Below, one piece after another: positions 4,487 to 46,329 of a stretch of DNA of 46,849 nucleotides (position 1 is its first letter; every line of letters begins with the position of its first letter). A program made the translations under genes and the position numbers. This DNA is from a virus. The stretch covers positions 1 through 46,849 of the IMG/VR virus record IMGVR_UViG_3300042923_000260. The stretch is one strand, 5' to 3'. The notes under the pieces were generated by a model. That model was not told the origin of the DNA, searched no databases, and worked only from the letters and a program-made list of their open reading frames with translations.

Positions 4487-4612
4487 CTTCCTTTGGGAGA
4501 GGAGGGTTACTCCTACTCCCTTAATGATCTGAATGATCTATTACGGCTCGGGCCTATTCGGTCGTTACGGGGGCCTCCGGCCATTTATGTCGCTGTTTCT
4601 TCGTACTGCGCA

Positions 4613-4792
4613 TTAAAATAACTTTGGTTCTGCTTGTTTCAAATGTGATATAGGATGTGGGGAATATGCAGTGTATCCGTTATATTCATTTTCCGGCCAA
4701 AGCACATATGCACGATCACCCAGAACCTGCTTTATTTCACCATTTGTCCATTGACTGTCTGTTCGATGTTCAACTATATCTCCCTCTGCCAT
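4613..4792 (-). CDS. 59-aa hypothetical protein
   Basis: ATG at 4792 with GGGAGG 9 bp upstream, stop at 4613. It begins MAEGDIVEHRTDSQWTNGEI and looks like a small beta-rich domain of the SH3/Tudor-like kind common among early phage proteins. The 120 bp between its stop and the methyltransferase start hold a weak inverted repeat (GGGAG...CTCCC) and no gene that I can support. Confidence 0.6.
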   Translation of the reverse strand: MAEGDIVEHRTDSQWTNGEIKQVLGDRAYVLWPENEYNGYTAYSPHPISHLKQAEPKLF

Positions 4793-27181: not shown

Positions 27182-27304
27182 AGAAAAGGAGCCGTGCGTC
27201 AACACGACTCCCATCATGTACAATCCGCTATAAGAGCGGTTGGCTTTCGGAGTTTGGTCAGAAGTAGACCGCTATCCTTGGACGGGGCGGTCTACTTTTT
27301 TTTG
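27182..27304 (+). ncRNA. Candidate antitoxin RNA of TA locus 2
   Basis: Begins about 7 bp after TAAGAT, with a 5' stem-loop (GGAGCCGTG...ACACGACTCC) and CCGCTATAAGAGCGG, and ends at a strong terminator. The end overlaps the 3' part of the toxin gene on the other strand, giving an antisense contact. Ends are estimated from promoter and terminator positions. Confidence 0.65.
27263..27304 (+). terminator. Strong terminator of the locus 2 antitoxin
   Basis: AGTAGACCGC (27263-27272) pairs perfectly with GCGGTCTACT (27287-27296), followed by eight or more Ts. It overlaps the last codons of the toxin gene on the opposite strand. Confidence 0.9.
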
Positions 27305-27375
27305 TTGAAGGATAAAATCAACACAACCAGTGTCGCAAATGAAATCATTAGCGTCAGTGCTTGGTATACCTCCAT
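27292..27375 (-). CDS. Type I toxin, putative holin-like toxin family (locus 2)
   Basis: 27 aa: MEVYQALTLMISFATLVVLI followed by LSFNKKK, a very close fit to the putative holin-like toxin family (MxxYxALxLMIxFGxLI pattern, one membrane helix, lysine end). The SD GGGAGGTGAGG is part of a hairpin with CTCCC (CTCCCGGAAGGGAG), which would hide it in the full-length mRNA. The unit lies between the secreted stalk-domain gene and the internal virion genes. Retention of the phage or plasmid-like stabilisation is the usual role; an exclusion or abortive role is also possible. Confidence 0.88.
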   Translation of the reverse strand: MEVYQALTLMISFATLVVLILSFNKKK

Positions 27376-27433
27376 TGGCCTCACCTCCCTTCCGGGAGAT
27401 TAGCCGACCGCCCTTATGCCATTGTACTGGATT

Positions 27434-42183: not shown

Positions 42184-43905
42184 TCAACCTACTTTCAATC
42201 CCCATTTATCAGCGAGATACTTTTTCATGTCCGGCGCTGCCTTGCGGTAATCCTCTTGCAGATCCTCCGGCAAGTCTTTAATGCTTGGCTGCGCTTTAGG
42301 AATAAGCGCGGTCTGCTGCCCTCTGATCGCCAGTGTGATTGCCAGTGACATCACCAAGTCATCATGTTCACCTGGCATTGCTTCCGGCCTTCCTTGCTTG
42401 TTCTTCACAAACTTGAGCATTTCCTTAAGCGTGCCTATATGGTTAATGAGGTGTATGTGTTCCCTCACGTACTCCACAAGCTCCGATATGATCACGTTCC
42501 GGTTTGTCAGCCCTGTAACCCATCCAAACACCATCTTAATGTCCTTGCTGATCGTGTGGATGTCTTGGCGCATGTACAATCGTGGGTAGTTCATCTTTTC
42601 AAGGTTGATGATAATGCCCGGGTTAAAGTTTACCTCCGGTCCCAGCAGCGCCTTGTTATAGTACATGCCGAATTTGTATAGCTCTTCAGCGTACATATCA
42701 ACGTCCATATGACCGTGTAAGACTGCCACTTGCTCAAGGGTGATATTGTCCAGCATGTGCGCTCCGTCGAAGTCACCGCCCTCCACGCCTTGTGCAACGT
42801 CGTTACCGCTGATGTATGGCCTATCCGGTTCTGGATGTTTAAATATGGTGATCCATCCGTGATCATCAGGAACAAACACCAGTTTCTTTTCTCCTTCACC
42901 TACGTACTTCAGACTGCCACGCTCACCAATTGGGTTAGCTTCCAACTCTCTCACACGCTTGATGATGATCTCATTGTTGAACACTGGTGTACCCGTGGTA
43001 AGGAAAGCCTCCATTGCGTTACACGGATACTCTTGCTTAAACAGATTTTCATCACCGTTGAGCTTATCCTTAATGGTGTTGCGTCTCCATTGCAGCTGGT
43101 CCAGATCAAGGTTATACGACTCTTGGATGTCTCGCTCATAAGGTGTGAGTTCAAAACCCGTGTATGGTGCTCTGTACCTCGGGTTCTCAAACCACGCTAC
43201 GAACAGAGGTACAAAGTTATTGTTCCGGCGCTCTGCGTTGTCCCAAAGCTCCTGGAAGTAATTCATACCCTTTGCTGTGGACTCAACAATAACGATAGCG
43301 CCAAAGTCTGGGACAGACTGCATGATGGAGGTCATTGTCTCTTCCGGTTTGTCCCACTTGGCAAGCTCCGAGATATGCAGATAGTTGATGGTGTACGATG
43401 AACCGGCATTCAGATTCTTGGCTGTTTCCACTAGGAATTTATTCTGTAGCCCCGGATCGTTGTCTCTGCTAATCTCCTTAGAATCATCAAATCGTGGGTT
43501 TTCGAACAATATACCTTTACCTCTGGATGGACGGCGCTTCGGTTTAATGACCTGTGGCAGATACTTATAGAATCGGTCCGACATGTCGTTGATGGTGACC
43601 GCTGAATCCTCGTCAAATGAAACGATCATGGCCACTTTGTTAAAGCTGAAGTTCAGGTCATGAAAAAACACGCCCTCCGTGGCTGTGCTGAAGCCAAGCT
43701 GACGCGCTTTTAGGATGATGATGTATAATGTCCTCCGTTTTGATTCGTCCGGCTCTGCTGCCTTCCAGTCCTCTATGATACCGATTAGTCTATCCTGTGC
43801 CTCATTGGTTTGGAATGGTACGATCTGCGCTTCCTTGTTGCGAATCTTCAGGCACTTGGTGAAGTACGTCCGGTAGCTATCCTTTAACACCTTAAGTGTG
43901 CTCAT
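42184..43905 (-). CDS. terL: Terminase large subunit
   Basis: 573 aa. The ATPase has an adenine-binding stretch (VPFQTNEAQDRLI), Walker A-like ILKARQLGFSTATEG, Walker B AIVIVESTAKG with the coupling region after it. The nuclease domain has GNDVAQGVEGGDFDGAHM (first Asp), LGPEVNFNPG (Glu) and GEHDDLVMSLAITLA (last acidic pair). It packages DNA through the portal and cuts it. The overlap with TerS is 4 bp. Intact and full length. Confidence 0.94.
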   Translation of the reverse strand: MSTLKVLKDSYRTYFTKCLKIRNKEAQIVPFQTNEAQDRLIGIIEDWKAAEPDESKRRTLYIIILKARQLGFSTATEGVFFHDLNFSFNKVAMIVSFDEDSAVTINDMSDRFYKYLPQVIKPKRRPSRGKGILFENPRFDDSKEISRDNDPGLQNKFLVETAKNLNAGSSYTINYLHISELAKWDKPEETMTSIMQSVPDFGAIVIVESTAKGMNYFQELWDNAERRNNNFVPLFVAWFENPRYRAPYTGFELTPYERDIQESYNLDLDQLQWRRNTIKDKLNGDENLFKQEYPCNAMEAFLTTGTPVFNNEIIIKRVRELEANPIGERGSLKYVGEGEKKLVFVPDDHGWITIFKHPEPDRPYISGNDVAQGVEGGDFDGAHMLDNITLEQVAVLHGHMDVDMYAEELYKFGMYYNKALLGPEVNFNPGIIINLEKMNYPRLYMRQDIHTISKDIKMVFGWVTGLTNRNVIISELVEYVREHIHLINHIGTLKEMLKFVKNKQGRPEAMPGEHDDLVMSLAITLAIRGQQTALIPKAQPSIKDLPEDLQEDYRKAAPDMKKYLADKWGLKVG

Positions 43906-44291
43906 TCGATCAGATCCCTGAGTTGATCCTCAAACGAAGACCGAACATCTGCTACAACCTGTTCTACTGGTTTGTACCCACCACGATCAAGGATATCCTT
44001 AGCTGCGGCTATCCGGTCCTTGTCCATTGCGTCAGGCTTCAACATGATCTCTTTCAGCACCTTATATGCCTCAACAGCGTCCTCAGCAAAGATTTGACGC
44101 AAGTCTCTGTTAAGGTTCTGTTCAGTTTTGTTGAGATATTGTTGAACTTCAACACTCTTCAACAAACGACTGCCCTGACTGTATGCCGTTTTCTCACTGT
44201 ACCCTGCTGCTATGGCAGCCTTGGTTGCATTGTTGCCATTCTTTAGATACTCCGTGACGAATATCATCATCTGCGGTCTCAAGTCTGCCAT
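43902..44291 (-). CDS. terS: Terminase small subunit
   Basis: 129 aa from ATG 44291 (GGGGGTG 6 bp upstream; an in-frame GTG nine bases earlier sits within that site). The helix-turn-helix typical of TerS is GNNATKAAIAAGYSEKTAYS, followed by QGSRLLKSVEVQQYL and a central helix. It recognises the packaging site, which would be expected in or near this gene. Confidence 0.9.
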   Translation of the reverse strand: MADLRPQMMIFVTEYLKNGNNATKAAIAAGYSEKTAYSQGSRLLKSVEVQQYLNKTEQNLNRDLRQIFAEDAVEAYKVLKEIMLKPDAMDKDRIAAAKDILDRGGYKPVEQVVADVRSSFEDQLRDLIE

Positions 44292-44304
44292 TGTGTTCAC
44301 CCCC

Positions 44305-45031: not shown

Positions 45032-45167
45032 TGTCTATCTCACCACCTCTATAAAGATCAATACCATGAATATGAGTGTTATAGCTAAATATCGTTCTGA
45101 ATGCCTCAACCTGTTCCGGCCTCGCTTCGCTTAGTATTTCGGTCGTCTCGATGGCGCTGCGCGCAAA

Positions 45168-45194
45168 ACACAAAGACCGGCTATATGCCGGCCT
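45168..45194 (-). terminator. Terminator-like hairpin at the start of the late operon
   Basis: On the minus strand GGCCGGC, loop ATATA, GCCGGTC, then TTTGTGTTTT. It lies at the end of the 115-aa gene. The 130 bp between it and the DUF3797 gene show no gene that I can support. Confidence 0.65.
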
Positions 45195-45525
45195 CTACTT
45201 TATATTGCTTCAATGCATCGCTAATTTCCATGTGGACATCGTGACCAGATTTTTGTGCTTCAAACAGAATGTAAAGGTAATTTGCTATTTCACTCTTTTT
45301 ATCAAATGCAGTTGCTTGCTGGAAACTCATAGTATCCAATAGTCCAGAAACTGTATTTCCTGATGTTGAATGTTTTATGTCATCAAACAAGTTTACATGT
45401 TGACCAGTATACTCGGTAGAAATGTAGCAAGTCCCATCTTGTGCAATGCATACTGTTCCTCTGTCTAATTGCAATGTGATTGTTTCGTCGTGTTCATTCA
45501 ATCCAATCAATGTTGTTTTCTCCAT
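45181..45525 (-). CDS. Hypothetical protein after the leader RNA
   Basis: About 114 aa from ATG 45525 (GAGG 9 bp upstream); the frame extends eleven codons further to 45558. It contains a beta-rich N-half (TIGLNEHDETITLQLDRGT-like) and a helical C-half (EIANYLYILFEAQKSGHDVH). It is bounded on both sides by terminators, so expression may depend on readthrough of the first. Family unknown. Confidence 0.6.
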   Translation of the reverse strand: MEKTTLIGLNEHDETITLQLDRGTVCIAQDGTCYISTEYTGQHVNLFDDIKHSTSGNTVSGLLDTMSFQQATAFDKKSEIANYLYILFEAQKSGHDVHMEISDALKQYKVEAGI

Positions 45526-45557
45526 CTTCATCATCCTCATCATATTTTTGTAAAACA

Positions 45558-45588
45558 CAAAAAGAGCAACGGCGACATACCGTTACTC
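45558..45588 (-). terminator. Strong terminator ending the leader RNA
   Basis: On the minus strand GAGTAACGG, loop TATGTCG, CCGTTGCTC, then five Ts. Eight of nine pairs match. It lies about 320 bp downstream of the TATAAT box at 45910. Confidence 0.88.
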
Positions 45589-45904
45589 TCTCTGCCGACC
45601 GGGATATCCCGACCCCTGTTTGATGTGGGAGAGGAATTTCACCTCACAAAGATGCGCTCTCGCAATTCATCCACCGAAAACCTTGCGGCAAGGGTGCGTT
45701 TTGTTCCGCCACCACATCATATATGCTAACCACCCTGTCGAAGGTTGCGCTGAGCAGCATGCGCTAATTGGGTGGGTGTTGCTAAAAGGTAGCGCCAACT
45801 CTCGTTAACGCCAAGGAGGTAGGAGTAAATCATCAGTGAATAAAAGTGAGGAATGGCCGACACTAGGGGCAGTCCGCGCGTCACTGAATGCCGACCCTTC
45901 ACTA
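45558..45904 (-). ncRNA. Structured leader RNA of about 345 nt before the late operon
   Basis: The gap between the late regulator and the next gene has no convincing ORF but many perfect complementary segments. The outer ones are AGTGAA/TTCACT (45898-45903 with 45835-45840), CCACCC/GGGTGG (45770-45775 with 45730-45735) and TGATGTGG/CCACATCA (45712-45719 with 45621-45628). Local ones are GCGCTA/TAGCGC, CCTTG/CAAGG (45681-45693), GAGG/CCTC and the palindrome CGGGATATCCCG (45600-45611). It starts from a perfect -10 box and ends in a strong terminator. A regulated late leader or a trans-acting RNA are both possible. Confidence 0.7.
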
Positions 45905-45909
45905 ATAAC

Positions 45910-45915
45910 ATTATA
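45910..45915 (-). promoter_or_regulatory. -10 box of the leader RNA (candidate late promoter)
   Basis: A perfect TATAAT on the minus strand directly after the stop codon of the late regulator. No clear -35 box is present (best at 17 bp is CAACAA), which suits a promoter that needs an activator. Confidence 0.6.
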
Positions 45916-46329
45916 TCACGATGCCTTTGCACTTGTTGTCACTACTTTGTCATGTTGGGCCATTCTATTTCTGATATATCCGTAAGAATGTCCCGTATGT
46001 GCGGCGATTTCCTTCAGACTGTACCCTTGCGCCCGTTTGGACAATATTACATTATCCAGTCCCGTGAATTGGTCCATATAGGATTCGTACTGGCGCTTGA
46101 TACCTTCCAACCTCATGACTTCATCCACACACTCGTTTAGCTTCTCAGCAGCCTTATCATACAGTTCCAGTCCCTTTACTAGATCTATATGGCAGTAGAT
46201 GCTTGAAGGTAGCTTTCCTTCCTTCACTGCTTTCTGAGCGGCCTCCCACTGCTTACGAAGTTCGAATTCCCTGAGCTTCATCATCTGCAGTTCAGCGCAC
46301 GTATCGGCGTATGACTCCTTCCAGTTCAT
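45916..46329 (-). CDS. ArpU/RinA-like late transcription regulator
   Basis: 137 aa. The N-terminal half is helical. The C-terminal part has VILSKRAQGYSLKEIAAHTG followed by SYGYIRNRMAQ, a sigma-70 region 4-like helix-turn-helix. This layout and the position at the end of the early genes, just before the late operon, are those of ArpU/RinA/LmaC-type activators of late transcription. It would act on the promoter directly downstream of its own stop. Confidence 0.8.
   Translation of the reverse strand: MNWKESYADTCAELQMMKLREFELRKQWEAAQKAVKEGKLPSSIYCHIDLVKGLELYDKAAEKLNECVDEVMRLEGIKRQYESYMDQFTGLDNVILSKRAQGYSLKEIAAHTGHSYGYIRNRMAQHDKVVTTSAKAS

Follow-up and report, generated by a model that had tools for sequence, protein, structure and literature searches.

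A non-coding leader in a phage late operon, located at 45915-45558 with the gene of the late activator on one side and the packaging genes on the other, appears to combine two roles. We analyzed it within a DNA stretch of 46,849 nucleotides (the window), in which all features of the leader lie on the minus strand. Our main reading, to which we assign a probability of roughly 0.6, is that an activator-driven, terminated leader is a site from which stable RNAs are expressed and that late mRNA arises by readthrough. The late-leader observation of the initial annotation is real, and the locus is more interesting than described there.

According to the model that we propose, the late activator would bind direct repeats that its own gene carries near the end, and would thereby switch on a single promoter. 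The transcript would begin with a hairpin, P1, continue with exchangeable non-coding modules and mostly stop at an intrinsic terminator, while readthrough of this terminator would give the late mRNA for packaging and structural proteins. The leader would both head the late operon and act as a carrier site for small stable RNAs, with tRNAs, tRNA-like elements, other structured modules and occasionally small genes as cargo. In the window, the cargo consists of a hairpin, module B, and a class-II tRNA-like element (TLS). The leader could also be a fully read-through 5' UTR without an accumulating short form.

The late promoter and its putative activator

The gene ahead of the leader (45916-46329) encodes a predicted late transcription activator of 137 amino acids, which is HTH/sigma region 4-like and of the Ltr/RinA/ALT/ArpU kind according to its phrog_10157 match, regulator families, its position and its relatives. 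The region-4/HTH protein also matches phrog_36, and all of its Pfam matches are below the cut-off. An ArpU-like regulator had been described just upstream of the leader; indeed, an HTH regulator ends where the TATAAT begins, but its likeness to ArpU is loose given the sub-threshold Pfam matches. The leader had likewise been placed before the packaging genes. A terminase run does lie downstream, but a hypothetical ORF (45181-45558, 125 aa) intervenes after the leader terminator; we consider it a cargo ORF, and it has no family match and is missing from most relatives. The first recognisable late gene encodes the terminase small subunit (43902-44300, Pfam Terminase_2) and is followed by those for the large subunit and the portal.

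A search of IMG/VR with the regulator gave 12 loci, to which a leader pattern and a regulator profile added further ones. The compared set comprised 24 distinct leaders, that of the window and those of 23 phages.

The -10 box TATAAT (45910-45915), noted before as perfect, directly follows the stop codon of the regulator gene and could be aligned in 24 loci; from its position, transcription is expected to start near 45903. No -35 box was reported at the late promoter of the window. Tandem 11-bp direct repeats (TGACAAAGTAG TGACAACAAGT, 45931-45952) lie within the terminal part of the activator gene. In a comparison of repeat lags, the lag-11 repeat (at least 6 of 7) was present in 24/24 loci, other lags in at most 2/24, and in all 24 loci the repeats fall within the final codons of the regulator gene, ahead of the -10 box. 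The repeated word varies by phage (TGACAAA, GGAACA, GGTAACA, AGTACA, GGATGCA), and where phages share a word, the recognition helices of their regulators are mostly alike. The repeats are probably an activator site that replaces the -35 box, to which we infer that the activator binds.

The promoter and regulator part is, by its sequence, of an already known late-activator type. As in the Ltr/RinA/ALT systems of phi13, phi11 and TP901-1, a small regulator gene stands directly ahead of the late promoter and the packaging genes, and the direct repeats at the end of the activator gene are found in the 24 loci as published: in phi13, the 3' end of ltr carries four repeats, and ALT of TP901-1 binds four repeats at -76 to -32 (PMC13123087). 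In phi11, repeats, a TATTAT and a terminator lie between rinA and terS, and A118 has a nearly identical promoter region (GTGATAAAATGTTATTAGTGAG). The papers that we found on Ltr/RinA/ALT deal with the promoter; a leader RNA that ends at a terminator and carries tRNA-like cargo is not described in them. Unlike these known regulators, that of the window has no counterpart in cultured phages or plasmids: DNA and protein searches of approximately 50,000 cultured-phage records and of plasmid collections yielded no relatives of the leader or the regulator, nor did a comparison of the activator alignment with Clostridia-type genomes.

A constant 5' hairpin and an exchangeable cargo site

Folding energy sets the whole leader apart from chance only modestly (z -1.9, with 2/100 shuffles folding equally well), and the helices therefore needed comparative support. 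This was obtained for P1 (45844-45903, CM R2 67 bits), a 5'-terminal covarying hairpin with a GCCCCU bulge and a 9-nt loop that contains a CGCGCG palindrome. Seventeen distinct sequences retain P1, and at 12/16 pairs both partners have changed. Its pairs are 97.4% paired and have a covariation of 0.461 compared to 0.226 (sd 0.020) after shuffling, although these sequences are related and the figures are not probabilities. RNAalifold recovered the same structure from an unguided alignment as was seen in the manual one, and sliding the pairing partners led to a clear loss. The bulge is invariant, and each phage has one P1 copy, at the head of the late operon. The loop holds a palindrome of at least 6 nt in 23/24 leaders (CGCGCG, GCGCGC, CCCGGG or TCGCGCGA), compared to 6% expected at random, and this suggests that the RNA may dimerise. 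After a spacer of approximately 20-40 nt, hairpin II (45788-45814) follows in the alignment; it is terminator-like with a UUUU behind it, and weak in most members.

Covariation in homologous phages, which had been named as the check on this leader, is thus present, and together with the relatives in many phages it bears out the earlier suggestion of a new structured phage RNA. At least three long-range helices had been noted as well; they correspond to P1, the module B hairpin (CCACCC/GGGTGG) and an 8-bp acceptor-like helix (UGAUGUGG/CCACAUCA) that closes 45719-45621. In contrast, the leader cannot be treated as one element as it was there, since it is modular, with a constant 5' part and a cargo site that changes even among close relatives.

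Module B (GCAACACCCACCC...GGGTGGTTAGC, 45724-45783 in the window) often stands directly ahead of the tRNA-like element. It is found in the window, L001, L006, L011, L012, L030 and L047, with variants in L003, L010, L049, L062 and L247. Behind the tRNA-like element, a short hairpin (GGGGTCGGGATATCCCGGTCGGC, 45594-45616) takes the place of a longer module D of relatives. The class-II tRNA-like element is leader cargo in the window, L011, L047 and others, whereas the content of other leaders differs: tRNA-Ile(UAU) in L001, L003 and L035, tRNA-like elements with an enlarged anticodon region in L026 and L053, a hydrophobic ORF of 40-odd amino acids in L010 and L025, and an HNH-type ORF in L055. Several structured modules are also among the cargoes, and the leader of L009 has none, consisting of P1, hairpin II and the terminator only.

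The HNH endonuclease-like ORF of L055 stands right behind P1 and is a candidate mobile element that may have used the leader as an insertion site. The otherwise different leaders of L019 and L046 have a module of approximately 130 nt in common (ACAGGCUGGGAUACUACCG...GGAUGGAAAACAG), whose pattern had no other match in IMG/VR.

A family of tRNA-like elements

The tRNA-like element of the window (45621-45719, CM R1 65.9 bits) is composed of the 8-bp acceptor helix, UG, a D arm of the tRNA-Leu type (GCG GAACAAAA CGC), a variable insert that replaces the anticodon arm, and the T arm GUGAGG UGAAAUU CCUCUC; it has no elbow contact. Neither RF00005 nor ARAGORN matched 45621-45719. The motif of the family starts with an acceptor of 7-8 bp, UG and GCG GAAUA(N)RA CGC, after which come an insert of approximately 47-151 nt and, stacked directly on the acceptor, a T arm (6-7 bp, loop UGNRARU). 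Most members retain the positions of the tRNA core contacts U8-A14 and R15-Y48, in that U8, A14 and A15 are kept and a U precedes the T stem, and most lack both the D-loop GG and the T-loop UUC. The elbow GG/UUC contact, the 7-nt anticodon loop and the 5-bp T stem of tRNAs are missing from the family.

In 15 TLS sequences, 13/18 pairs are changed on both sides (0.615 compared to 0.163), counts that lean towards structure because the sequences had been pre-selected for pairing. A pattern of the D arm finds TLS in unrelated phage contigs, with 8/45 matches scoring at least 13 compared to 0.13% of shuffles. Independently, a pattern of the T arm and the acceptor end, without the D arm, led to four new loci (one of them, L244, close to L199), all of which have the D arm and reach 56-82 bits with model R1. 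The same model gives true tRNA-Leu genes approximately 34 bits. No TLS match was obtained in 753 kb of control DNA. Among 398 Clostridia-type genomes, there were two prophage-like matches (L258, L259), and the other matches were true tRNA-Leu where checked. The family is absent from Rfam 15 and from the literature searched. By sequence and predicted structure, the TLS is thus an undescribed, widespread family of phage tRNA-like RNAs, and the sequence-and-structure model can be used to locate further members.

Approximately 24 phage loci contain a TLS, and terminase or portal genes are frequent neighbors. The neighbor is the terminase large subunit gene in L184, L229, L245 and L246 and the portal gene in L226; in L195, terminase- and portal-like ORFs were recognised from their length and sequence rather than through a family search. 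The TLS of L193 lies behind a late-type regulator, while other copies are near holin, methyltransferase, replication or tail genes. At least six copies (L199, L207, L212, L221, L185, L247) are away from the late-leader locus, which argues against a TLS function that is bound to the late switch. We regard the TLS as an accessory RNA, presumably with a counter-defence or regulatory function, rather than as a tRNA that takes part in translation. Phage tRNAs have been proposed as counter-defence (PMC10264068); real tRNAs share the same leaders, and the TLS differ from them in having no canonical anticodon arm. Similarly tRNA-like are pseudo-tRNAs such as tRNAOther of Bacillus cereus, a tRNA-like part of a longer RNA that does not serve in translation and is encoded on a mobile element (PMC3399842), whereas the TLS belong to class II, lack the elbow contact, have a long T stem and are widespread in phages. 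This family makes the reason why phages carry tRNAs and tRNA mimics accessible to experiments.

Several further features were seen next to TLS copies. In a late leader of L193, the tRNA-like element at 4559-4640 on the minus strand has two tandem T-arm-like hairpins behind the TLS. The TLS of L199 and its near-duplicate L244 follows an AbrB-like gene, and an SbcC-like ATPase gene downstream of the TLS in L199 and L259 represents a second recurrent context. A conserved, structured-looking element (CUGUCGUCUGGCGACUAACAAAUUGACGACUUGA ... UAUCAAGUGGCCUG) lies between the TLS and the packaging genes in L226, L229 and L246; the L226/L229 element had no Rfam match.

Terminators, readthrough and alternative readings

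The strong terminator that had been reported is located at 45560-45591, where a U tract comes after a stem of -16.8 kcal/mol, and a leader terminator is present in 23/23 complete loci. Between it and the following genes, no promoter scored above shuffles in 21 loci. The order of activator sites, -10 box, leader and terminator, with no recognisable promoter behind, agrees with the proposed terminated leader from a late promoter. From this anatomy, we infer that the leader RNA accumulates and that late mRNA depends on readthrough, and the expression of late operons that are headed by an intrinsic terminator becomes testable. A second intrinsic terminator (45174-45193) precedes a stretch (45035-45155) with an element (GACGACCGAAATAC...GAGGCCGG, also GACCGAAAUAC...GAGGCCGG) that is conserved behind the terminator in relatives and is followed, at the head of the late operon, by a TTG-started membrane-type ORF of 24 amino acids (MRHSERYLAITLIFMVLIFIEVVR).

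A similar layout was found in model phages. In TP901-1, the gap between ALT and terS contains a gene for tRNA-Lys, an element resembling tRNA-Ala and a third one, likewise tRNA-like, whose T stem is long, and a terminator follows them; in Lactococcus phage 53802, tRNA-Met, a similar tRNA-like element and a terminator lie between the same genes. The layout of Tuc2009 is alike, and its tRNA-like elements are not called by ARAGORN. At the corresponding place, TP712 and bIL286 have no tRNA. The start of the late operon thus appears to be an RNA cargo site also in phages such as TP901-1, and one largely missed by annotation. The tRNA genes of TP901-1 (Lys and Ala-like, L282:2635-2876) and 53802 (Met, L285:1758-1829) are missing from the annotation of the records shown. 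A general late-leader architecture of Gram-positive phages, in which a 5' RNA would control passage through terminators and the leader would be an exchange site for tRNA-scaffold RNAs with variable inserts in place of the anticodon arm, deployed late against functions of the host or rival phages, is a tentative and rather doubtful extension.

One alternative that we considered assigns to P1, together with hairpin II, the role of a put/conAn2-type RNA antiterminator, which would bind the departing polymerase and let it pass the leader terminator and internal terminators. Antitermination by P1 is a plausible candidate mechanism, and we lean against it while taking it seriously. It would fit a 5'-most, covarying hairpin with an invariant bulge that occurs in a single copy at the operon head, and HK022 put and pLS20 conAn2 are likewise structured RNAs that head operons with intrinsic terminators. 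Moreover, operon-internal terminators have been read as a sign of processive antitermination in the case of conAn (PMC8955417), and intergenic terminators in the late operons of 13 phages are on the coding strand 57 times compared to 22 times on the opposite strand (leader terminators included where covered); the next Shine-Dalgarno sequence is 8-14 nt behind the U tract in 20/34, and promoters at the internal terminators do not exceed chance (1/50 at P<=0.05). However, late internal terminators also occur in three of the four classical control phages (phi11, TP901-1 and Sfi21); this weakens such terminators as proof of antitermination and makes leaky termination, which may only grade expression, an alternative. 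Put consists of two stem-loops of approximately 70 nt (PMC9378689), whereas the leader has one long hairpin with a 3' bulge, the spacer and then hairpin II; P1 has no sequence similarity to put, and an identity with it was rejected. In addition, the 5' sequences of L193 and L245 are different. A Bacillus EAR or another Rfam family was rejected as well, since nothing reached a gathering score or was convincing up to E=5; in the related leaders, gathering and relaxed thresholds returned only tRNAs (RF00005). The terminated leader upstream of the late operon is shared, by sequence anatomy, with lambda Q/pR'; the regulator of the window looks like a DNA-binding activator.

That the whole leader is one ornate RNA, which dimerises via the palindromic P1 loop in the manner of ROOL or GOLLD and has tRNAs as passengers, is improbable. 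The frequency of loop palindromes speaks for it, as do GOLLD and ROOL themselves, phage RNAs of unknown function that lie near or contain tRNAs and oligomerise via kissing loops (PMC12286853), but the loops are a few distinct sequences from related phages, all content 3' of P1 is swapped or missing between close relatives such as L009, and the leader is smaller than these RNAs, modular and without an Rfam match. We also find it rather improbable that the TLS are decaying tRNA genes without function. The D arm is close to that of tRNA-Leu, true tRNA-Leu genes score with model R1, and the same loci hold real tRNAs; yet the acceptor and T stems carry compensatory changes, decay would not lengthen helices as in the added eighth acceptor pair and the T stem of 6-7 bp, and the D-loop GG and T-loop UUC are lost jointly and consistently in unrelated phages. 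Although the genes immediately behind several TLS copies encode terminase or portal proteins, a packaging RNA for terminase analogous to phi29 pRNA is very improbable, because close relatives (L009, L010, L016, L020) lack the TLS despite the same packaging genes, and it is found elsewhere in other phages. Equally far-fetched is a small protein from a 68-aa frame (45932-45726): the P1 frame is open in most members, but stops near its start in L025, L046 and L053, frames that shift and diverge downstream of P1 and the absence of a ribosome site led us to reject a coding leader, in line with the non-coding character first ascribed to it. We thus favor the terminated, cargo-carrying leader with late mRNA from readthrough.

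Elsewhere in the window, a type I toxin-antitoxin RNA of the BsrG type was identified at 27189-27428 (Rfam RF01412, 58.3 bits). Strong opposite-strand terminators accompany it inside the late region, and terminators of similar sequence recur on that strand in several relatives.
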